From: Thermodesulfovibrio sp.
Lineage (GTDB): Bacteria; Nitrospirota; Thermodesulfovibrionia; Thermodesulfovibrionales; Thermodesulfovibrionaceae
DNA: 64,000 bases
Direction: 5' to 3'
Assembly: GCA_020725335.1 (NCBI GenBank)
Contig: DYFF01000003.1
Span: 1 to 64,000, forward strand
The notes beneath the pieces were generated by a model. It searched no databases and was not told the origin of the DNA. It saw only the letters and a list, made by a program, of their open reading frames with translations. A program made the position numbers and the translations under genes. Shown here piece after piece: positions 3,950-62,064 of the stretch. Within the stretch, counting starts at the first letter, position 1; each line of letters begins with the position of its first letter.

Positions 3950-5710
3950 TTATAACAAACTTTTTATTTTTTCTTTAAGTTTGCCTATTATTTTTTCGGC
4001 AAAATCCTTATTTAGTTTGCCTGTTCCAGAGGGAAGTTCAAATATTCTTTGAGGCAATTCAATATTATCAACATCAAACCCACATTTTATTTTGAAACGA
4101 TATTTTTCAGCATATATTTCTTTCCCTATTTCGGTTAGTCTTTTCTCATCAAGGTCAAAACCAGTCAGCTTAAGACATTGTAAGATAATCTGCGGAGTGT
4201 AAATCTCTCTTCCAAAGAAACATATTACAAGACTTGAAAGAATCTGTCTCCAGTATTCTTCTGTAATTATTTTCTCAGCAAATTGTTCCTCATCAAAGGA
4301 TTTTATCATTGCTTCTTTATCAATAGCATATCCAGCACTGTCAAGATGACTGTGCCTTGCCCCAAAAAGATAGCCAATATGAGCACCATATCCAGTATGA
4401 TATCCAGGCATTTCATTTTTACCATAGGTAAGGGCAAACTCTTTGCCTCCATACTTAGATGAGGCATAGTCAATGCCTTTGCCAAGATCTTTAAAAAATT
4501 CACCTTCGCTAAAAACAATTTTATTTATTAATTGAGAATATGCGTCCACATCTCCCCACTGAGGAATAACTCCCTCTGTCATTTTTTCATTTATAAGTCC
4601 TTTTTCAAAGGCTTCTGTACTCCATGCAAGGACAACACCTGTTGAAATAGCATCAAGTCCCATGTCTTCCACAACCTCAATAAGCCTCAATACTCCTTCT
4701 GGTGAGGCAACTCCAAGCATTGTACCGAGCGCATATATCAATTCATAGTCATAAGATAAATAAACAGTTCTATAAAAATATGGTTCATCTTCATAGGGTT
4801 TTCTTAACGCTCCAAGATGAATGCAAGCTACAGGACAATGGGAACAAGCAACTCTTCTTCCGAGATGTTTTTCAGCAAAGCTCTCTCCTGATATATTTTC
4901 TAATCCCTCAAGTTCGCTTATTGTAAGATTTTTCATAGGAATACCTTTAGAGAAACTTAAAGGCATTACATTTGCAGGTGTACCAAGTTCATGATATTTT
5001 TTCATCTTGTCAGATTCTGCAAGTTGCTTAAGTAAGTTTGAGTAACACTCTTTGTATCCTTTGAAATCATTGACCTTTAAATCTCTTTTGCCTGAGACAA
5101 CTACAGCCTTCAGGTTTTTACTTCCAAATACAGCTCCGAGCCCGAGTCTACCAAAATGTCTATATGTTTCAAGAGTAACACAGGCATAGGTTATCATTTT
5201 TTCTCCTGCTGGACCAATCCTCATTATGGTTCTCAAACCAGCACCAGATTCCTGCCTTCTTATAAGACTAGCCGCAGACACCCCTTCTTCAAGTCCCCAT
5301 AGGGTTGTAGCATCTTTGAAGTATACTCTATCTCCGTGAATTGCTATGTAACAAGGTCTCTCACTTTTTCCTTTGATAACAATAGCTCCGTATCCTGCCA
5401 TTCTTATTGCTATAGCACTTCTTCCACCTGCGTGAGATTCTCCAAGATTACCTGTATGTGGAGACTTGAATAATGCCACTGTTTTAGAAGCAATTGGGAA
5501 AAGTCCATTTAAAGGACCTATGGAAATGATTATAGGATTATCTGATGAAAGAGGGTCTGTATCATATTTGCAGTTTTCATGCAAAAGCTTTATTGCAACA
5601 CCAGTGCCCCCTATGAATTGAGAGAACAAATCGTCCCTCTCTTCAATCCAAAATTTCTTTTTTGAAAGGTCAATATATAGAACTTTTTTTAATGTATCTT
5701 CCTTTATCAT
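3950..5710 (-). CDS. Aldehyde:ferredoxin oxidoreductase family (tungsten/molybdopterin)
   Basis: This 586-residue protein is a member of the AOR family, which oxidises aldehydes to carboxylates with a bis-pterin tungsten or molybdenum cofactor and passes electrons to ferredoxin. The [4Fe-4S] ligands are C289, C292 and C296 in CSHCPVAC, with a likely fourth cysteine near 494 in SLVICFFG. The N-terminal domain has the family pattern (LYIDLSKKKF, FIGGTGVAIKLL, GPLNG, GRSAIAIRMAGYGAIVIKG). It overlaps the upstream ferredoxin gene by four bases, giving a ready electron acceptor. AOR, FOR, GAPOR and WOR paralogues are hard to separate, so the substrate is not assigned. Its position ahead of the sphingolipid-like genes could be chance. 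Confidence 0.88.
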   Translation of the reverse strand: MIKEDTLKKVLYIDLSKKKFWIEERDDLFSQFIGGTGVAIKLLHENCKYDTDPLSSDNPIIISIGPLNGLFPIASKTVALFKSPHTGNLGESHAGGRSAIAIRMAGYGAIVIKGKSERPCYIAIHGDRVYFKDATTLWGLEEGVSAASLIRRQESGAGLRTIMRIGPAGEKMITYACVTLETYRHFGRLGLGAVFGSKNLKAVVVSGKRDLKVNDFKGYKECYSNLLKQLAESDKMKKYHELGTPANVMPLSFSKGIPMKNLTISELEGLENISGESFAEKHLGRRVACSHCPVACIHLGALRKPYEDEPYFYRTVYLSYDYELIYALGTMLGVASPEGVLRLIEVVEDMGLDAISTGVVLAWSTEAFEKGLINEKMTEGVIPQWGDVDAYSQLINKIVFSEGEFFKDLGKGIDYASSKYGGKEFALTYGKNEMPGYHTGYGAHIGYLFGARHSHLDSAGYAIDKEAMIKSFDEEQFAEKIITEEYWRQILSSLVICFFGREIYTPQIILQCLKLTGFDLDEKRLTEIGKEIYAEKYRFKIKCGFDVDNIELPQRIFELPSGTGKLNKDFAEKIIGKLKEKIKSLL

Positions 5711-6102
5711 GTTCTTTTATACTCTAACACCTTGTAATGACAACTCTTTGCACACTCTCCACATTGAATGCAAATGACTGGTTTGTTTTTCCCATTATTC
5801 CAACCAATAGCATCGAGAATACAGGCTTTAACACAGTGACCGCAACCTGTACATTTATCTTCTTTAAGCAATACGCCTCCTCCTTTTCTTACCACTAAAG
5901 CATCTTCAGGGCAGACACGTGCACAAGGAGGGTCTTCGCATCCCCTGCAGACAAATACTGAAAAACCACGGGATATTCCACCTTGAGAGCGTACTTTTAT
6001 ACATGAGCTTTCAAGTCCTGTGGCCAAATGGGCTCTTCCGCAGGCAAACATACAAATTAGGCAACCTACACATTTATTAGCATCCTTTACAAAAACAGGC
6101 AT
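5707..6102 (-). CDS. Polyferredoxin-type 4Fe-4S electron carrier for the AOR
   Basis: A soluble HycB/DmsB-like iron-sulfur protein of 131 residues with four cysteine clusters: CVGCLICMFAC, CRGCEDPPCARVCP, CTGCGHCVKAC and CIQCGECAKSC, enough for up to four [4Fe-4S] centres. Such subunits accompany aldehyde oxidoreductases and move electrons from the AOR to other acceptors. The ORF track begins 13 codons further upstream (6141), but that extension crosses a palindromic promoter and its sequence MFRFEIITCYNLS looks non-coding. I choose ATG 6102 (MPVFVKDANKC), which lies about seven bases after a perfect TATAAT and has no Shine-Dalgarno, consistent with a leaderless message. It is the first gene of the leftward operon. 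Confidence 0.85.
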   Translation of the reverse strand: MPVFVKDANKCVGCLICMFACGRAHLATGLESSCIKVRSQGGISRGFSVFVCRGCEDPPCARVCPEDALVVRKGGGVLLKEDKCTGCGHCVKACILDAIGWNNGKNKPVICIQCGECAKSCHYKVLEYKRT

Positions 6103-6106
6103 AGAT

Positions 6107-6128
6107 AAATTATAACATGTTATAATTT
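6107..6128. promoter_or_regulatory. Symmetric divergent promoter in a 22-bp perfect palindrome
   Basis: The half-site AAATTATAACA is followed immediately by its exact reverse complement. Each arm contains TATAAT, one per strand (minus strand 6114-6109, plus strand 6126-6121). Seven bases beyond the minus box is ATG 6102; the plus box lies 13 bases before ATG 6140. Neither gene has a Shine-Dalgarno. No clear TTGACA box is seen on either side. The site may also be an operator because any dimeric repressor bound here would cover both -10 boxes. Confidence 0.65.
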
Positions 6129-6139
6129 CAAATCTAAAC

Positions 6140-8167
6140 ATGGAAAAAGAAATCCTTCTTTTTTTTCATAAAACTCTTGCCAGTAATTTCTTGGATAGTT
6201 TAATGGTTTTCTTTACTCAAAGAGGTTACATTCTTTGGCTTCCTGTATTTTTTTGGATGATATATAGATTTAGAGTAAAAGAATACAAATTAATCTTTTA
6301 TTTGGTAGGAGCTATTATATTAGGGATATTCATTACTGATTGGTCTTCTCTTGAAATAAAAAATCTAATTCAAAGAATTCGTCCATGCCATACGGAGTAT
6401 TTTAGAGCAATTGTTGGATGCACAGATTCTTATAGTTTTCCTTCAAATCATGCTACTAATTCTTTGGCAACAGCAGTTATTTTATTCCTTTTTGGAAGAA
6501 GATTAGGGCAGTCAAGATTAGTTTCAATCTACATTTTCTCAATAGCCCTTTTAATTTGCTTCTCAAGAGTTTACTTAGGTATGCACTGGCCTATCGATGT
6601 AATTGGAGGAGCTTTATTAGGAGTAATTATTGGCGTTATTGTTTTTAAGGCTACTATTTCAATAAATAATCTAAAGAGGTTCTTTTATTTTTCCCTTATT
6701 ATTTTAAGCATCTTTAGAATATACTTAATTCTTCATAGCCCTATCGATATCTCTCCCGATGAAGCGCACTACTGGGAGTGGAGTAGAAGGCTTGATTTAA
6801 GCTATTACTCTAAAGGGCCGATGATTGCTTATTTGATTGCCTTTTCCACATGGTTATTTGGAGACACACCCTTTGGGATAAGAATTTTGGCAGTTGTATG
6901 TTCTCTCCTAAGTAGTATTTTTATTTATAAGATTGGTAAAAAATTATTAAGTGATAGAGTAGGACTCATTAGTGGTATACTTTTTCAGGCAATACCTTTA
7001 TTTTCAGTCTTTGGAATCATTTTTACAATTGACAGTCCATTTATTCTTTTTTGGATACTTTCCATATATGTTTTTTTGGTAGCTCTTGAGGGAAGAAAAG
7101 TATACTGGTTAATCCTTGGAATTATTATAGGTCTTGGGCTTCTTACTAAATACACTATGGCTTTTTTCTATTTGTGCATGTTTGTTTATTTGATAAAAAT
7201 TCAAAGAGATTATGCGGTTTCACTTGAAGATAAAAAAATAAATATTTTTAAAAATCCTGCGCTTTATTTGTGCATAATCATTTCTATAGTAGTTTTTTCA
7301 CCAGTAATAATATGGAACTTTCAGCATGACTGGGTAACGCTAAAACATACTGCTGGACAGGCACATGTTTATGAGGGCTTTAAGATTTCATTAAAATATT
7401 TTGCTGAATTCGTAGGAAGCCAATTATTAGTAATTACACCCTTAGTTTTTATAATTGGTTTTTATTTCCTCCTTAAACCTTCAGCATTAAAGTTTAATTC
7501 TAAGGTATATTGGTTTTTTATATCCTTTTCTTTGCCTGTTTTTGCTTTCTTTTTGCTTAAGAGTATACATGGTAAAGTTCAGGCAAACTGGGCAATGACT
7601 GCCTATATTCCTTTTCTACTGATACTGGCATATGTCTTTGAAAAGAAGGTATATAAAAAAATTATTTTATCTTCAATTATTATGGCAGCAATTTTTACTA
7701 TCTTAAGTTATTCAATACCTTTTATGAATCTTCCGGCTAATCTTGATCCCTCTTCAAGGCTTAAAGGTTGGAAACAACTTGGAGGTAGAGTATATGAAAT
7801 AAAAAAGGAACTTGAAAAATATGGTAATGTGATTATTTTCTCTGATAGATATCAGATTTCAAGTGAACTTGCCTTTTATGTAAAGGATCATCCCACAGTT
7901 TATTGTATTAATCTTGGTAGAAGAATGAACCAGTATGATTTATGGGATTCAATAAACAATGCATTAAAACAGGAAACTAAAACACACGGTATTTATGTTA
8001 TTTACGGAAATAAAAATGAGCCTGATAGTGAGGTTCTTTCTGCCTTTGAAAGATGTGATTCTGAAATTTTTACAGCTACACGTAAAAGTGTTAAAATTAG
8101 AGACTATACGATTTTTAAATGTTATAACTTTAAGGGCATGAACTTAAAGAAACCACAAAGCTATTGA
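6140..8167 (+). CDS. PAP2 phosphatase fused to a GT39/ArnT-type glycosyltransferase
   Basis: This 675-residue membrane protein joins two enzymes. Residues 1-175 are a PAP2 lipid phosphatase with K74...R81P (KNLIQRIRP), PSNHATNS at 101-108 and SRVYLGMHWPID at 142-153, the three acid-phosphatase motifs with catalytic His104 and His149. Residues about 180-675 are a polytopic C-type glycosyltransferase like ArnT/PMT, with the acidic SPDEAHYW loop at 205-212 and many hydrophobic helices. The pair suggests sugar transfer from undecaprenyl-phosphate onto lipid A or another acceptor on the periplasmic face, with the phosphatase recycling or trimming a prenyl or lipid phosphate. It is followed after 10 bases by a GT2 gene. 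Domain assignment is strong; acceptor and sugar are unknown. Confidence 0.85.
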   Translation: MEKEILLFFHKTLASNFLDSLMVFFTQRGYILWLPVFFWMIYRFRVKEYKLIFYLVGAIILGIFITDWSSLEIKNLIQRIRPCHTEYFRAIVGCTDSYSFPSNHATNSLATAVILFLFGRRLGQSRLVSIYIFSIALLICFSRVYLGMHWPIDVIGGALLGVIIGVIVFKATISINNLKRFFYFSLIILSIFRIYLILHSPIDISPDEAHYWEWSRRLDLSYYSKGPMIAYLIAFSTWLFGDTPFGIRILAVVCSLLSSIFIYKIGKKLLSDRVGLISGILFQAIPLFSVFGIIFTIDSPFILFWILSIYVFLVALEGRKVYWLILGIIIGLGLLTKYTMAFFYLCMFVYLIKIQRDYAVSLEDKKINIFKNPALYLCIIISIVVFSPVIIWNFQHDWVTLKHTAGQAHVYEGFKISLKYFAEFVGSQLLVITPLVFIIGFYFLLKPSALKFNSKVYWFFISFSLPVFAFFLLKSIHGKVQANWAMTAYIPFLLILAYVFEKKVYKKIILSSIIMAAIFTILSYSIPFMNLPANLDPSSRLKGWKQLGGRVYEIKKELEKYGNVIIFSDRYQISSELAFYVKDHPTVYCINLGRRMNQYDLWDSINNALKQETKTHGIYVIYGNKNEPDSEVLSAFERCDSEIFTATRKSVKIRDYTIFKCYNFKGMNLKKPQSY

Positions 8168-8177
8168 GGGAGTTAAT

Positions 8178-9122
8178 ATGGATTTATCAGTTGTAGTATC
8201 CCTTTTCAATGAAGAAGAGAACATTGACGAACTTCATAAAAAGTTATCAGAGACATTAAATAATCTTTCAATTTCGTATGAATTAATCTATGTTGACGAT
8301 GGAAGTTCTGATAATACATTAAAAAAACTTGAAGAGATTCAAAAAAATGACGCTAATGTAGTTGTTTTAGCCTTTAGAAGAAATTTTGGACAGACCGCGG
8401 CTTTTGCAGCAGGATTTGATTTTGCAAGAGGAGATGTGGTTATTACCATGGACGGAGACCTTCAGAATGACCCTGTAGACATACCAAAGCTTCTTGAAGC
8501 TATAAAAGATGCTGACCTGGTAAGCGGATGGCGGAAAAAAAGGAAGGATCCATTTCTATCAAGAAGGGTTCCTTCTATCGTAGCAAACTGGCTTATTGGT
8601 AAAGTTACAGGGGTTAGAATTCATGATTATGGATGTTCATTGAAAGCTTATAGAAGAGAAGTGGTGAAAAATCTCAGGCTTTACGGTGAGATGCACAGAT
8701 TCATACCAGCCCTTGCAAGCTGGTATGGAGTAAAGATCAAGGAAGTAGAGGTAACTCATCATCCAAGATACAGAGGCAAATCTAAATATGGAATAGGAAG
8801 AACAATAAAAGTTCTTCTTGATCTTGTTACAGTGAAGTTTCTCCACAGCTTCTCAACAAAGCCAATTCAGTTTTTCGGTCCGATTGGGGTTTTATTCATG
8901 ATTACAGGAGTTGCAATCGTTGGTTATCTTGTTTTTCTTAAATTTTTCAAAGGTATTTCAATAGGTGGAAGACCTCTGCTTCTTGGAGGATTCTTCTCTA
9001 TACTAATAGGATTAAACTTTATTGGAATGGGACTTCTTGGTGAGATGATTGTAAGAGTCTATCATGAAACACAGAAAAAACCTATTTATATTCTGAAAAA
9101 GATTTTAGGTCCGGGAGATTGA
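8178..9122 (+). CDS. GT2 polyprenyl-phosphate sugar transferase (DPM1/ArnC/GtrB-like)
   Basis: A 314-residue inverting GT-A enzyme with VVSLFNEEENI at the N-terminus, the nucleotide-binding VDDGSSDNT, the metal motif MDGDLQNDP, and two C-terminal membrane helices (about 235-260 and 270-295). This architecture belongs to enzymes that load a sugar from a nucleotide donor onto undecaprenyl-phosphate at the cytoplasmic face, such as ArnC, GtrB and DPM1. It would supply the lipid-linked donor for the GT39 domain encoded just upstream. A good Shine-Dalgarno (GAGGGAG) precedes the ATG. The next gene starts at a TTG that overlaps its stop codon. The sugar (glucose, mannose, aminoarabinose) cannot be read from sequence. 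Confidence 0.88.
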   Translation: MDLSVVVSLFNEEENIDELHKKLSETLNNLSISYELIYVDDGSSDNTLKKLEEIQKNDANVVVLAFRRNFGQTAAFAAGFDFARGDVVITMDGDLQNDPVDIPKLLEAIKDADLVSGWRKKRKDPFLSRRVPSIVANWLIGKVTGVRIHDYGCSLKAYRREVVKNLRLYGEMHRFIPALASWYGVKIKEVEVTHHPRYRGKSKYGIGRTIKVLLDLVTVKFLHSFSTKPIQFFGPIGVLFMITGVAIVGYLVFLKFFKGISIGGRPLLLGGFFSILIGLNFIGMGLLGEMIVRVYHETQKKPIYILKKILGPGD

Positions 9123-10015
9123 AAAAAAAATTAAAAGTCATTTTTCGATTCTTAGTTACAATAACTCTTATTCTATATATTCTAACTAAGATTGACCTTT
9201 CAAAATTGTTCATTACGCTCTCAGAAATAAATCTTTTACTTTTTTTCATCGCTTCTTTCTTATATATTGTCTCATCATATATATCAACTCTGAGATGGAG
9301 GCTTTTTATCCCTTCAAATTCGGCTCTCACAAAAGGTAGCTTGTTTTCTCTTTATATGATAGGTTGTTTTTTCAATATTTTTCTGCCGGGAATTATGGGA
9401 GGTGATGTAGTAAAGGTAATTTTAATGAGAAAAATGACTGGACTAAAAGAAGCAATCGCCTCAGTTTTTATTGAAAGATATATTGGGTTTTTTGGTTTAC
9501 TCTTGCTTGGATTTATATTTTTCTTTATTTTTTATCAGGATCTCCCTAAAAATGAAACTATATATCTTGTCCCTTTAACTTTTGTCTCTTTTTTATTTGG
9601 AACACTTATTTTATATCTGTCAGGGAAGATATCCTTTTTAAGAGATATAAAAAATTACATTTTTAGATTTGACAGAAAACTTTTTTATAAGGCGTTTATT
9701 TATTCACTTCTTGTTCAACTTACAGTCATGATATCTGTCTATTTTGTCTTCTTAAGCCTGAATGTAAATATTAAATTTTATGAAATAGTGATTTATCTTC
9801 CACTAATAATTATCTTAGCCACTTTACCAATATCTGTCTCGGGCATTGGAGTGAGGGAATGGGGTTTTTTAATATTCTTTGGGGGAAATGTGGGTAACGA
9901 GAAAGCTTTGGCAATATCTATATTATGGTTTCTCTCAATAACTTTTGCATCTCTGTACGGAGGGATTGAATATCTAAGATTTAAGGATTTTATCAATGTG
10001 CATTATAAAAAGTAA
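9119..10015 (+). CDS. LPG-synthase-TM/YbhN-AglD family membrane protein, candidate lipid-linked sugar flippase
   Basis: This 298-residue integral membrane protein has about eight hydrophobic segments and the family marks FLPGIMGGDVVKVILM near residue 95 and PISVSGIGVREWG near 240, characteristic of the lysylphosphatidylglycerol-synthase transmembrane family (UPF0104, YbhN, AglD). Members occur beside polyprenyl-phosphate glycosyltransferases, and a flipping or accessory role for lipid-linked sugars is plausible but unproven. It starts with TTG at 9119, overlapping the TGA of the GT2 gene, so it is translationally coupled. Its 3' end overlaps the convergent HDOD/AAA+ gene by 42 bases. Confidence 0.75.
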   Translation: MKKKLKVIFRFLVTITLILYILTKIDLSKLFITLSEINLLLFFIASFLYIVSSYISTLRWRLFIPSNSALTKGSLFSLYMIGCFFNIFLPGIMGGDVVKVILMRKMTGLKEAIASVFIERYIGFFGLLLLGFIFFFIFYQDLPKNETIYLVPLTFVSFLFGTLILYLSGKISFLRDIKNYIFRFDRKLFYKAFIYSLLVQLTVMISVYFVFLSLNVNIKFYEIVIYLPLIIILATLPISVSGIGVREWGFLIFFGGNVGNEKALAISILWFLSITFASLYGGIEYLRFKDFINVHYKK

Positions 10016-11536
10016 CCTCTTTAAATCTCTGAGGTTATTAGGGAAAGTATCTGTATTAAATCTGTCTATGACTTTTGGTTCATTAAGTTCATTTTCAATT
10101 TGAAGTCTGTATTTTTTTACTATTTCACCAGCTATATAGAATATGTCTTCTCTTCTCTCTCTTAATGGTGATATTCTAAAAAAAACAGGATTTAAAAGTT
10201 TTATTAAAGACGTATTAAATTCTTCTTTAGCCATTTTTATTCTAATATCTTCTTTGCCGATGAGGATAAATTTTACATCACTGAACTCAGTAGGTTTAAT
10301 CTCTCCTACCATATAAAAATTTTTATCTCTAATTGCCTTTTCAAGTTTTGTTTGAAAATCCAACGGCATACTATCAAATTCTTTTACTACCAATGTTCCA
10401 TTTTCTGCAATCTTTAAAATTCCCTTTTTCCCTTTTTTACCTCTGAAACCCTCTTTTATTCCAAAAAACTCTTCTTCTAATGGTTCGCTATCAATATCAG
10501 CGAAAATCATGACAAAGGGCTTGTCTTTACGTGGATTATTTTCATCGTGATGAAGCGCAGCTGCGAGAAGTCTTTTGCCAACACCTGTTTCTCCATAAAT
10601 ATATATATTCCTATCCTTTGAATTTTCTCTAAACAATTCTTCAAGCATTTTAGAGAAAATATTATTTTTAGACCTAAATTGAAATTTCGTAAACTGATAA
10701 AATTCTTCTGTAGAGAATTTTATTTCTTCAACCACTTCAAAGGCTTTACCAATGTTTATGAATCTGTCCATGGCAGTTTGTAAAATATCAAAGGCATCAG
10801 TCTCTTTAATACTAAAGTATCTTTTTGAGAGTTCTAAAAAAAGTTCCTTATTATCTATTACAGAGGGAAACATTAAAGCTTGTGCACCATAGGCTGAAAG
10901 ATCTGATAGAAGCGCTAAATCATAAGGTAATTGTAATTCTGAACCTTTTGGCGGTTTAACATCCTTTAGAATTTTTTGTCCTTTATTGAAGATTTTATTT
11001 AGAAAATTAATGGTATTTCTGTAAATTGGAGGAGTTAAAATATTGCGTTGAGCGGATTCTAAATTATTTGTTCCGAAAATTGTATTTTCAATAAAAACTC
11101 TATCTTCCAAAGGAAGTTTGATCAAAAAATTGATAATTCTTCTGTATTTTGGAAATTCGTTCATCATAAAAAGCAAGCCCAAACAAGGAATTAATCCAGC
11201 AAAAAAAGCTTCATCTTTATGTACATGAGTGATTTTTTCAACTATCAAAGAAGAAATTTCTGCACTTAAAACTCCATAAATCCAAATCTGCAAATCTTCT
11301 TCTTCAAGAAAAAGGTCTCTTTCAAGAATGATATTTTTAATTCTTTGAATTCCTAAGTAGTTAACCATTTGAGAAAAGTTTGTTATTTCCTTAGAAACTA
11401 AATTTCTATTGACTTCACGAATTAAAAGATAAGCGATAGTAGGATCGTATTTAAGTATAAAAGGAGATTTATCAATCTCTTCATCAATAACTGCTTTAAA
11501 TTTGGATATAGTATGTTTAAAAACAGGCAATGACAT
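9974..11536 (-). CDS. HDOD domain protein with degenerate sigma-54-activator AAA+ domain
   Basis: The track ORF begins at 11674 inside mnmG; I place the start at ATG 11536 (MSLPVFKHTISK), four bases after the start site expected from a TATAAT at 11547-11552 on the minus strand. The 520-residue product has an HDOD-like N-terminal half (AGLIPCLGLLF echoes the HDOD AGLLHDIG pattern) and a C-terminal AAA+ domain resembling NtrC-type activators. Walker A is intact (GETGVGKRLL, about 315), but the GAFTGA sigma-54 loop is replaced by EGFRGKKG (about 362) and Walker B reads LVVKEF instead of LFLDEI. No C-terminal helix-turn-helix is seen. It probably cannot open sigma-54 promoters; a scaffold or signalling role is inferred. 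Confidence 0.7.
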   Translation of the reverse strand: MSLPVFKHTISKFKAVIDEEIDKSPFILKYDPTIAYLLIREVNRNLVSKEITNFSQMVNYLGIQRIKNIILERDLFLEEEDLQIWIYGVLSAEISSLIVEKITHVHKDEAFFAGLIPCLGLLFMMNEFPKYRRIINFLIKLPLEDRVFIENTIFGTNNLESAQRNILTPPIYRNTINFLNKIFNKGQKILKDVKPPKGSELQLPYDLALLSDLSAYGAQALMFPSVIDNKELFLELSKRYFSIKETDAFDILQTAMDRFINIGKAFEVVEEIKFSTEEFYQFTKFQFRSKNNIFSKMLEELFRENSKDRNIYIYGETGVGKRLLAAALHHDENNPRKDKPFVMIFADIDSEPLEEEFFGIKEGFRGKKGKKGILKIAENGTLVVKEFDSMPLDFQTKLEKAIRDKNFYMVGEIKPTEFSDVKFILIGKEDIRIKMAKEEFNTSLIKLLNPVFFRISPLRERREDIFYIAGEIVKKYRLQIENELNEPKVIDRFNTDTFPNNLRDLKRLLFIMHIDKILKS

Positions 11537-11546
11537 ATATTTCTTT

Positions 11547-11582
11547 ATTATAATAAAATAGGATTCAAAATGAAAGTATAAA
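11547..11582. promoter_or_regulatory. Divergent promoters for the HDOD/AAA+ gene and mnmG
   Basis: A minus-strand TATAAT (11552-11547), inside the 12-base palindrome TTATTATAATAA, lies 10 bases from ATG 11536. A plus-strand TATAAA (11577-11582) lies 13 bases before ATG 11596 of mnmG. Both would give leaders of only a few nucleotides. No convincing -35 boxes are seen. Confidence 0.5.
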
Positions 11583-11595
11583 CTTTGATTAGAAA

Positions 11596-13470
11596 ATGTA
11601 TAAAGAGAAAGATTTCGATATAATTGTTGTGGGAGCAGGTCATGCAGGCTGTGAAGCAGCACATGCTTGTGCAAAGATGGGCTTAAGCACAGCTCTATTT
11701 ACAATTTATCTTGACACAATCGCTCAGCTTAGTTGTAACCCTGCTATTGGTGGACTTGCAAAAGGGCATCTTGTAAGGGAGATAGATGCTCTTGGCGGTA
11801 TTATGGCAAAGGTCACTGATCTGGCAGGAATACAATTTAGAATGCTAAATCGTTCAAAGGGACCTGCTGTATGGTCTTTGCGTGCTCAGGCTGATAGAAT
11901 ACTTTACAATGTTTTTATGCGAAAACTACTTGAGGATACAAATAATCTTGCAATAAAGCAGGCTATGGTTGAAGAAATAGTTGTAGAAAATGGCAAGGTT
12001 AAGGGAATTATTACCTCTCTTGGAGTTTTCTACGGTGCAAAGGCTGTAATAATCACACCCGGAACTTTTCTAAATGGGCTTATTCACATTGGACTTGATT
12101 CCTTTGAAGCAGGAAGGGCAGGAGAGTTTCCTTCAAAAAGGCTTTCTGAATCAATTAAAAAGCTTGGTCTTAGAATGGGAAGATTAAAAACAGGTACACC
12201 TCCAAGAATTGATGCAAAAACAATAGATTTTTCAAAAACAGAAGAGCAAGGTGGTGATGACCCGGCCATACCTTTTTCCTATTCAACAAAGGAAATCACA
12301 AATCCTCAGGTGCCTTGCTATATAACATATACAAATGAAAAAACCCATGAAATAATCCTAAATAATCTTGACCGTTCACCTCTTTATAGCGGAAAGATAA
12401 AGGGAATAGGTCCGCGTTACTGTCCTTCCATTGAAGATAAGGTTGTCAAATTCAGAGAAAAACCAAGACACCAGATATTTCTTGAACCTGAGGGACTGAG
12501 CAGAAAGGAATATTATGCAAATGGAATTCCTACATCTTTGCCCTATGATGTTCAGGTAGCTTTTGTAAGAACAATCCCTGGACTTGAAGATGCTGAAATA
12601 ATGAGACCAGGCTATGCAATTGAGTATGATTTTGTATATCCAACACAGATCAAACATACTCTTGAGGTAAAAGGCATAGAAGGGCTTTATCTTGCAGGAC
12701 AGATAAACGGAACAAGTGGGTATGAAGAGGCAGCTGCTCAGGGTCTTATGGCAGGCATAAATGCAGCATTAAAAATAAAAGGACAGCCACCTCTTATTCT
12801 TCGAAGGGATGAAGCATATATTGGTGTTTTGATTGACGATCTTGTTACAAAGGGAACTCAGGAACCTTACAGAATGTTTACATCTCGAGCTGAATTTCGT
12901 TTGCTTTTAAGGCATGATAATGCTGACCTCAGGCTCAGAGATCATGGATATAAAATTGGACTGGTAGATGAAGAAATCTATGAAGACTTTAGACATAAAA
13001 GAGATTTACTTGAAGGGGAAATAAAAAGGTTGAAATCCATTACAATAAAGCCTTCAGATGAATTAAATAAAGCACTTATAGGATTAGGAACATCTCCAAT
13101 TGATGATGCTACATTCCTTGACAAAGTTCTTAAAAGACCAGAGATTAAATATGAGCTTATTAAAAAGTTCTCACCTCCTCCATTTGAACTAAGTCAGGAA
13201 ATTGAAGAGTTGGTAGAGATTCATATTAAATATGAGGGTTACATTGCTAAACAGCTCGAACTTGTTGAGAGAATGAAACAGTTTGAAGAAAAGATAATTC
13301 CAGAAAGCTTTGATTTTAATATCCCGGGACTATCAAGAGAAGTAATACAGAAACTTAAAGATGTGAGTCCAAGAACAATCGGACAGGCGATGAGAATTCC
13401 GGGAGTAACACCTGCTGCAATATCAATTCTCATGGTTGCCCTACAGAAAGGTACATGGATAAAAAAATAA
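11596..13470 (+). CDS. mnmG: tRNA uridine-5-carboxymethylaminomethyl modification enzyme MnmG
   Basis: MnmG (GidA) binds FAD and NADH and, with MnmE, installs the carboxymethylaminomethyl group on U34 of tRNAs decoding two-codon boxes. The FAD Rossmann motif [16 protein letters not shown] is at the N-terminus, followed by [22 protein letters not shown] and the glycine-rich [17 protein letters not shown] near residue 370, all hallmarks. Length 624 is typical. The C-terminal MnmE-binding helices end in [13 protein letters not shown]. It heads an operon with rsmG (16-base overlap), tsaB and rimI, all acting on tRNA, rRNA or ribosomal protein. The start sits just after a TATAAA box without a Shine-Dalgarno. 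Confidence 0.97.
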
Positions 13471-57905: not shown

Positions 57906-60491
57906 ATGAATCAAAACTATGATTTCAAAAATATAGAAGCCCGATGGCAAAAAGAATGGATTGAAAACAAACTTTTTGAAGTAAATGAAGAACAATCAAA
58001 AAAGAAGTTTTACTGTCTTGAGATGTTCCCCTATCCAAGTGGGAGAATTCACATGGGGCATGTGCGTAACTATGCAATTGGTGATGTAATTTCAAGATAC
58101 AAGAGAATGCAAGGTCTTAGTGTGCTTCATCCTATGGGATGGGATGCCTTCGGACTTCCTGCTGAAAATGCTGCAATAAAGCACGGAGTGCATCCAGCAA
58201 AATGGACTTATGAAAATATAGATTATATGAAAGCTCAACTTATTAATCTTGGTTTAAGCTATGACTGGAGACGGGAAGTGACGACTTGCTCTCCTGAATA
58301 CTACAGGTGGAATCAATGGATATTTTTGAAACTCTATGAGAAAGGGCTTGCTTACAGAAAAGCCTCTTTTGTTAACTGGTGTCCTTCCTGTGCAACAGTG
58401 CTTGCCAATGAACAGGTAATTGACGGAGCTTGCTGGAGATGTGAAAGTCAAGTTGAGCAAAAGGAACTCGAGCAGTGGTTTTTAAAGATTACAGCTTATG
58501 CTGAAGAGTTACTCAGGGACTGTGATAGCCTTACTGGTTGGCCTGAAAAAGTGCTTACTATGCAGCGTAACTGGATAGGCAAAAGCGAGGGAGTAGAGGT
58601 TGACTTTCCTATAGATGGAATGAAGGAGGCTTTAAGAATCTATACCACAAGACCAGATACTATATTTGGTGTAACTTTCATGTGTATCTCTCCTGAACAT
58701 CCTATAGCTGAAAGGCTATGTGAAGACAAAGAGGCATTAAGAAGAATAAGACAATTACAGCGTGAGCCAGAGGTTAAAGAGGGGGTATTTACAGGTAAGT
58801 ATGCCATAAATCCGCTAAATGGAGAGAGAGTACCTATCTGGATTGCCAATTTTGTTCTTATGGAATACGGAACAGGTGCAATAATGAGTGTGCCAGCTCA
58901 TGACCAGAGAGATTTTGAGTTTGCTACAAGATATGGAATCCCTATAAAGGTAGTGATAAAACCAGAGAGAATAGAACTATCAGAACCTCTTAAAGAAGCC
59001 TATGAAGAGGAAGGAGTAATGGTTAATTCAGGTTCTTTTTCAGGGCTTCCATCTTCTGAAGGCAAAAAAGCAGTAGCCAACTATATTGAACAAAAGGGAA
59101 TGGGTAAAAAGACAGTAAACTATAGACTCCGTGATTGGGGAATTTCAAGACAGCGTTATTGGGGAACTCCTATACCCATAATATATTGCGATAAATGCGG
59201 AATAGTTCCTGTTCCAGAAAAAGACTTGCCCGTGATTCTTCCGGATAATGTAAATCTTACAGGTAAAGGTGAGTCTCCTCTTAAATATGTGGATGACTTT
59301 TTCAAGACAAAATGTCCTCGCTGTGGTGCTGACGCAAGAAGAGAAACAGATACTATGGATACCTTTATTGACTCCTCATGGTATTTTGTAAGATATTGCT
59401 CCCTTCATGAGGAAGAGGCTCTCCACAGGGAAAAAATAAAATATTGGATGCCTGTAGACCAGTATATTGGCGGAATTGAGCATGCAGTGCTTCATCTGCT
59501 CTATGCAAGATTTTTCACAAAAGTGCTTCGTGACCTCGGCATTGTTCCCTTTGATGAACCCTTTGAAAGACTTCTTACACAGGGTATGGTATGCATGGAA
59601 AGCTATCGCTGTCCACAGCATGAATGGCTTTTTCCAAAGGAAGTAAAAGAGGGGAAATGCATCCACTGCGGAAGCCCTATTACAGTAGGAAGAGTAGAAA
59701 AGATGTCTAAATCAAAGAAAAACATTGTTGACCCTGATGAGATGATTGAACAGTATGGCACAGACACGGTAAGAGTATTCACTCTCTTTGCTGCACCACC
59801 TGAAAAAGACCTTGAATGGTCTTCTCAGGGTGTTGAAGGAGCTCATAGGTTTTTAAAGAGGGTATATGCTCTCGTATATAAACACCATGAGTGGTTAAAG
59901 AATACATCTATAGGTGAAGCAGAGACAAGATACCTCGGTCGCTTATGCTCCCTCGGGATGACAGAGAAGAGTCATTCCGAGGCACGAAGTGCCGAGGAAT
60001 CCCCCATCCTTAGCCTCATCCACAGAACAATAAAACGGGTAACCCTTGATATAGAAAAGGAATACCAGTTTAACACAGCAATTGCCCGACTTATGGAGTT
60101 TGTAAATGAAGTTTATGGTTATGAACCAAAAACTGATGAAGAACGTATAATATTTAAGTTTGCTATAAGAAACTTTCTTATACTTTTAAGTCCCTTTGCA
60201 CCTAATATTGCAGATGAACTCTGGAATGCAATTGGATACCATGGTTTTATTCTTAATCAGCCATGGCCTCAGTATGATGAAGAACTTGCCCGTGAGCAGA
60301 TGATAGAGCTTGTAGTGCAGATAAACGGTAAAGTACGTTCAAAAATAATGATTTCTCAGGGCATGAGTGATGAAGAAATAGTAAAGATTGCTCTTGAAGA
60401 TGAAAAAGTTAAGCAATGGATAATTGGTAAAGAGATTCTCAAAGTTATCCCCGTAAAAGGCAAGCTTGTAAATATAGTGGTGAAGGGATAG
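57906..60491 (+). CDS. leuS: Leucyl-tRNA synthetase with in-frame repeat insertion
   Basis: The 861-residue class I synthetase has HMGH in [13 protein letters not shown], the editing domain ([27 protein letters not shown]), and KMSKS in [14 protein letters not shown]. It charges tRNA-Leu, such as the GAG isoacceptor in this window. Near residues 675-701, between the catalytic core and the anticodon-binding domain, a segment [20 protein letters not shown] is encoded by copies of the palindromic repeat family. The reading frame continues through it into the normal [22 protein letters not shown] Shine-Dalgarno precedes the ATG. The enzyme should be active, because the site is a variable surface loop in other LeuS. 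Confidence 0.97.
59928..60003. repeat. Palindromic repeat pair inserted inside leuS
   Basis: Two units lie back to back: an inverted one (about 59928-59962, ending CTCGGGATGAC) and a direct one (59971-60003, GTCATTCCGAGG...GCCGAGGAATCCC). The direct unit is identical over 33 bases to the intergenic copy at 62032-62064. The same inverted-plus-direct arrangement is found at 62075-62148. Base composition is clearly more GC-rich than the flanking leuS codons. Confidence 0.9.
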
Positions 60492-61887: not shown

Positions 61888-62031
61888 GGGATGAGACCCT
61901 GTCCCTTTGCTATCGCTCAAGGTCAGAGTTACAAAAAGGGAGGAGGAGACTCTTCGGGACAATGTCTCTCAGAGTGACAGAAAGAAAGTATCCCGAGACA
62001 CTCTCTCTTTCATTCCGAGGACTCCCATCCT

Positions 62032-62064
62032 GTCATTCCGAGGCACGAAGTGCCGAGGAATCCC
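62032..62064 (+). repeat. Repeat unit identical to the one inside leuS
   Basis: GTCATTCCGAGGCACGAAGT and the following bases match leuS 59971-60003 without a difference over 33 bases. The central stem is GGCAC/GTGCC with a GAA loop. Confidence 0.92.

Follow-up and report, generated by a model that had tools for sequence, protein, structure and literature searches.

The 37-bp gap between the divergent ferredoxin-AOR (aldehyde ferredoxin oxidoreductase) operon and the PAP2 phosphatase-glycosyltransferase (PAP2-GT) operon of this Thermodesulfovibrio genome holds a perfect 22-bp palindrome, which probably consists of two fused housekeeping promoters and is palindromic since both of its arms are the same 9-mer; a pair of predicted start sites, a leaderless ferredoxin mRNA and mutual exclusion of the two directions belong to the same proposal. 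According to this proposal, two extended -10 promoters of the form TGTTATAAT, read by the housekeeping sigma factor, would lie head to head with one promoter for each operon. Leftward transcription would start from the A of the ferredoxin ATG and yield a leaderless mRNA, while rightward transcription would start about 7-9 nt before the PAP2-GT ATG and yield a very short leader. With the predicted starts about 29-31 bp apart, a polymerase engaged in one direction would block the other, and the two promoters would fire alternately and not simultaneously. The sequence and extent of the element, its conservation and the recurrence of this promoter form in the genus were observed directly. The features are collected in Table 1, where positions refer to the window, i.e., the whole 64,000-nucleotide stretch of DNA analyzed.

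Table 1. Features of the divergent gap and its flanking genes (window positions).
Feature	Position	Strand	Basis
Perfect palindrome AAATTATAACATGTTATAATTT	6107..6128	no strand	Direct sequence reading; symmetry checked by script
Invariant core ATTATAACATGTTATAAT	6109..6126	no strand	Identical in 16/16 genus genomes, once each
Extended -10 TGTTATAAT of the putative PAP2-GT promoter; hexamer TATAAT 6121-6126	6118..6126	+	Sequence; 9-mer also precedes other genes in the genome and genus
Extended -10 TGTTATAAT of the putative ferredoxin-AOR promoter; hexamer TATAAT 6114-6109	6109..6117	-	Sequence; constant 6-nt spacing to ATG in aligned genus members
Predicted minus start, A of the ferredoxin ATG (leaderless)	6102..6102	-	Inferred from -10 spacing; TATAAT enrichment 4-8 nt before ATG
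Predicted plus start, no Shine-Dalgarno sequence	6131..6133	+	Inferred from -10 spacing
Ferredoxin-like 4Fe-4S protein, minus operon gene 1	5707..6102	-	Pfam Fer4 families; start MPVFVKD conserved in genus
Aldehyde ferredoxin oxidoreductase-family protein	3950..5710	-	Pfam AFOR_N and AFOR_C
PAP2 phosphatase and PMT_2-type glycosyltransferase fusion, plus operon gene 1	6140..8167	+	Pfam PAP2 and PMT_2; start MEKE conserved in genus
GT2-family glycosyltransferase	8178..9122	+	Pfam Glycos_transf_2; 84-92% identity in genus members
LPG_synthase_TM-family membrane protein	9119..10015	+	Pfam

Direct reading of the gap (6103-6139, between the minus-strand ATG at 6102-6100 and the plus-strand ATG at 6140-6142) bore out the first-pass annotation in its description of a 37-bp gap between divergent genes that holds a perfect 22-bp palindrome and a TATAAT on each strand, and the distance of 13 bases that it gave from the plus box to the ATG was the value we measured; the minus box, which it had placed seven bases from its ATG, was found to lie 6 bases away. 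The TG of an extended -10, a point absent from the first-pass annotation, is present in both boxes, one base upstream of each TATAAT. The 18-mer core consists of two 9-mers with 0 bases between them (ATTATAACA followed directly by TGTTATAAT), such that the extended elements abut without overlapping, the hexamers are separated by six bases, and the outer two bases on each side of the 22-bp palindrome lie beyond the 9-mers. The palindromy of the 18 bp follows from this arrangement, because a 9-mer set directly against a second copy of itself on the other strand always yields a palindrome. The element is the sole perfect palindrome of at least 20 bp in the window, the next longest being 18 bp. 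A first-order Markov simulation of the window gave 0.05 palindromes of at least 22 bp per 64 kb, and when this value is scaled up, one or two such palindromes per genome are unsurprising. The palindrome by itself is thus weak evidence, and its conservation is strong evidence. The window also contains a dispersed repeat, GTCATTCCGAGGCACGAAGTGCCGAGGAATCCC, with one copy at 59970-60003 that lies in frame within the leucyl-tRNA synthetase gene near residue 689, a second downstream at 62031-62064, and a third, with 2 mismatches, at L123:266-299.

The genetic context of the gap was assigned with Pfam. In addition to the genes listed in Table 1, the minus-side gene that follows the AOR gene carries an NfeD domain. 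The conserved MPVFVKD and MEKE starts of the two first genes indicate that both boxes truly face start codons. Elsewhere in the window, a protein with an HDOD domain and a sigma-54 activator AAA domain is encoded at 9974-11674; its longest ORF overlaps a divergent gidA-like gene starting at 11596, and its true start is therefore probably further in.

Conservation was determined in an alignment of 14 Thermodesulfovibrio species, to which two more genomes (G015 and G006) were added for the 18-mer count, giving 16 genomes. The results showed that the 18-mer is letter-perfect in all 16, with one copy in each and always at this gap. In the aligned species, 19 consecutive columns, i.e., the 18-mer plus one base on the ferredoxin side, were invariant, as compared with 1/31 fourfold sites and 11/130 third positions in the ferredoxin gene. 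The outer AA/TT pairs of the palindrome are variable, and symmetric conservation stops at the ends of the boxes; AAA at 6130-6132, which bears on the predicted plus start, is nearly invariant. The spacing from the minus box to the ferredoxin ATG is 6 nt in all aligned members of the genus, and that from the plus box to the PAP2-GT ATG differs among them. The gap in G001 (L016 1900-1970) is longer on the plus side and contains a partial direct repeat, AATCACAAATTAG, so that the predicted plus leader there would be about 40 nt or more. These data bear on whether the palindrome could be a chance product of AT-rich DNA or could be held in place by coding constraint through an extended ferredoxin frame. 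The number of 22-bp perfect palindromes expected at this genome size and composition would allow the former, and the listed ferredoxin ORF (144 aa), which runs through the palindrome from 6141, would allow the latter; however, the run of invariant columns set against the variable fourfold sites speaks against chance, and the extended frame was rejected given that other species, e.g., G002, have its upstream ATG in a different frame and that the conserved protein begins at 6102. As judged from the compared sequences, conservation at the DNA level refutes both, and we give them practically no credence.

We then considered each half of the palindrome as a promoter. Box statistics were obtained from 464 kb of the 1.80 Mb, 21-contig genome with a simple ORF-based gene list. 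In these 464 kb, TATAAT was enriched 4-8 nt upstream of candidate ATG codons (23 observed versus 7.3 expected, P about 2.5e-6), which is the distance at which leaderless genes carry such a box (compare PMC3160421), and the TG was carried by 14 of the 24 boxes found 3-9 nt from an ATG, mostly as TGTTATAAT; TGTTATAAT at 5-8 nt before ATG is thus a recurring promoter form in this genome. At the orthologs of five comparator loci (C3:155449, the priA pair; C7:261697; C7:115688; C7:154345; C7:233120), TGNTATAAT or a near variant was the conserved upstream feature, often the sole one, and no -35 was seen. At the palindrome, TGTTATAAT conforms to TGNTATAAT on both strands in 16/16 genomes, and no convincing conserved -35 was present for either promoter; TTTAGA, a hexamer located 18 bp from the minus box, has a weak score as a -35 but falls within variable sequence. 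Given this recurrence, the palindrome is made of halves that are each a promoter form usual in the genus. Elsewhere in the 16 genomes, we counted 16 full-consensus pairs arranged back to back within 30 bp and 2 arranged face to face; boxes that abut were seen at the present locus only. A close parallel in the same genome, the priA/TPR pair (C3:155411/155449), likewise has a 37-bp divergent gap, back-to-back boxes of the extended -10 type and leaderless spacing, but its boxes are six bases apart, and it is not palindromic as a whole and varies across the genus. A further compact back-to-back extended -10 pair, with boxes three bases apart, was noted in G008 and G013 (L178/L179), between a gene with a product beginning MKVVTAEEIALIDKL and a gene for a short exported-looking protein. 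A literature search on Thermodesulfovibrio start sites or promoters found none.

We also weighed whether only the ferredoxin direction might be a real promoter, the other arm being either its by-product or one of its upstream elements. The fixed minus spacing beside the varying plus spacing, the much longer gap in G001 and the persistence of the 18-mer beside broken PAP2-GT genes are consistent with such a one-sided arrangement, but the plus arm has the full extended -10 consensus and precedes a start codon that is conserved, the GT2 gene further downstream is highly conserved in the genus (Table 1) and the 37-bp gap has no room for another promoter for it, and the plus arm is missing where the divergent genes are missing. 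The last point comes from L072 and L073, in MAGs labeled Thermodesulfobacteriota, where the ferredoxin-AOR pair is present without the divergent genes and there is no palindrome, only a one-sided TAAAAT 7 nt from the ATG. Taken together, we regard a promoter in the ferredoxin direction only as very improbable. The pair in L072 and L073 (5001-7180) has a ferredoxin 77-79% and an AOR 65-67% identical to those of the window, and the best ferredoxin identity among relatives of the same order is lower, at 57%; this closeness suggests horizontal transfer or mislabeled bins. More distantly related members of the order carry the PAP2-GT gene but lack the palindrome. The PAP2-GT frame is broken while the 18-mer is intact in G006 (L058), G007 (L046, L070) and G015 (L018, L074), with large parts of the gene missing in G015. 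Some of these breaks may be assembly errors, two of the three genomes being incomplete MAGs. The GT2 downstream of the broken genes is 88-89% identical, so the promoter still has a gene to serve there, and retention of the site is accordingly weaker as evidence for an operator.

The first-pass annotation had proposed that one regulator bound at the palindrome would shut off both operons. In its fuller form, the two promoters described above would coexist with an operator, and a dimeric repressor or activator bound to the palindrome would control both operons together. The perfect dyad symmetry, the survival of the 18-mer beside three broken PAP2-GT genes and the fixity of the N positions are in line with an operator: in 16/16 genomes a T occupies each N of TGNTATAAT, whereas four of the five comparator loci show variation at N (T/G, or all four bases at priA). 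The fixed N positions are mild evidence, with extra constraint there possible on these sequence comparisons. However, relative to the opposite promoter each N also stands at about -18, which is reported to be important where promoters have no -35, and this double use may explain why both are fixed. Moreover, the symmetry is forced by two identical abutting 9-mers, the invariant block ends with the boxes (plus one base on the ferredoxin side) while the outer pairs vary, and no regulator gene adjoins the palindrome in the window. A regulon search at up to 2 mismatches in the 16 genus genomes, which covers the suggestion that the same palindrome be sought at other promoters, showed one perfect copy in each genome and scattered near-copies at 1-2 mismatches, with no second conserved site; of the two 3-mismatch matches in this genome, one falls within a gene (L002) and the other in a divergent gap of the ordinary kind (L003). 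The lack of another conserved copy is as expected of promoters rather than of a regulon site, although a single copy per genome, while evidence against a regulon, is compatible with a single-target regulator. A search of the literature on tungstate regulators found nothing relevant. In the tetA/tetR system, divergent overlapping promoters are accompanied by separate operator sequences bound by TetR, the gene for which is adjacent; the present locus resembles it in its compact divergent gap and in dyad symmetry over both promoters, and differs in that the promoter boxes themselves constitute the symmetry and in having no adjoining regulator gene. The claim of a single regulator was thus unsupported. 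As the abutting of the two identical 9-mers suffices to produce the symmetry, the palindrome is explicable without an extra regulator and an operator is unnecessary; we consider one unlikely. Slightly less doubtful, though still improbable in our estimate, is that the fused palindrome has itself been selected as a two-way switch, by a single-site regulator or by polymerase competition alone, that fixes reciprocal expression of AOR-ferredoxin versus envelope glycosyltransferases across the genus. If true, such a switch would explain why the free N positions never change.

The fused-promoter reading is best placed by comparison with described promoter classes. In the shared -10 bidirectional promoters of Warman, Grainger and colleagues, the -10 boxes overlap and the starts commonly lie 10, 18 or 23 bp apart (PMC12825309, PMC10268837), the class being defined by divergent starts 7-25 bp apart (PMC10268837). 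The palindrome is like this class in that a short symmetric stretch would send polymerase both ways, one polymerase at a time, with the -10 as the main determinant. It differs in that two complete extended -10 boxes abut: its hexamers are six bases apart where those of the class overlap, and its starts, as predicted, lie about 29-31 bp apart and so outside the 7-25 bp range. From its sequence, the palindrome is most fittingly classed as an overlapping pair of divergent promoters of the extended -10 type, which would function like a bidirectional promoter. In E. coli, shared -10 promoters competed only once activity rose above basal (PMC12825309), and two full-consensus boxes might reach the activity needed. 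From the known polymerase footprint we infer that two polymerases could not fit at once at starts so spaced. The minus arm was also compared with the TA-led leaderless genes of Zheng et al. (2011), which have a -10-like box whose first T is about 12 bp before the start codon (PMC3160421); Thermodesulfovibrio is not named in the text of that study (PMC3160421). In every aligned member of the genus, the first T of the minus TATAAT is found 12 bp upstream of the ferredoxin ATG; in contrast to TA-led genes, the ferredoxin box has a TG as well and is joined to another promoter that points in the opposite direction. The start sites and leaderless translation are predictions from -10 spacing, and the earlier proposals of symmetric divergent promoters and a leaderless minus gene fit the comparative evidence, as does that of competing polymerases, which is probable.

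Together, these data indicated that the feature is real and strongly conserved, yet explicable. It is a clean natural setting in which to ask whether two abutting promoters of full consensus compete, and its predicted starts are spaced somewhat wider than those of the published shared -10 promoters. The locus further shows that promoter sequence alone can account for a perfect palindrome between divergent genes, which cautions against calling such palindromes operators, and it suggests that leaderless promoters of the extended -10 type recur in Thermodesulfovibrio.
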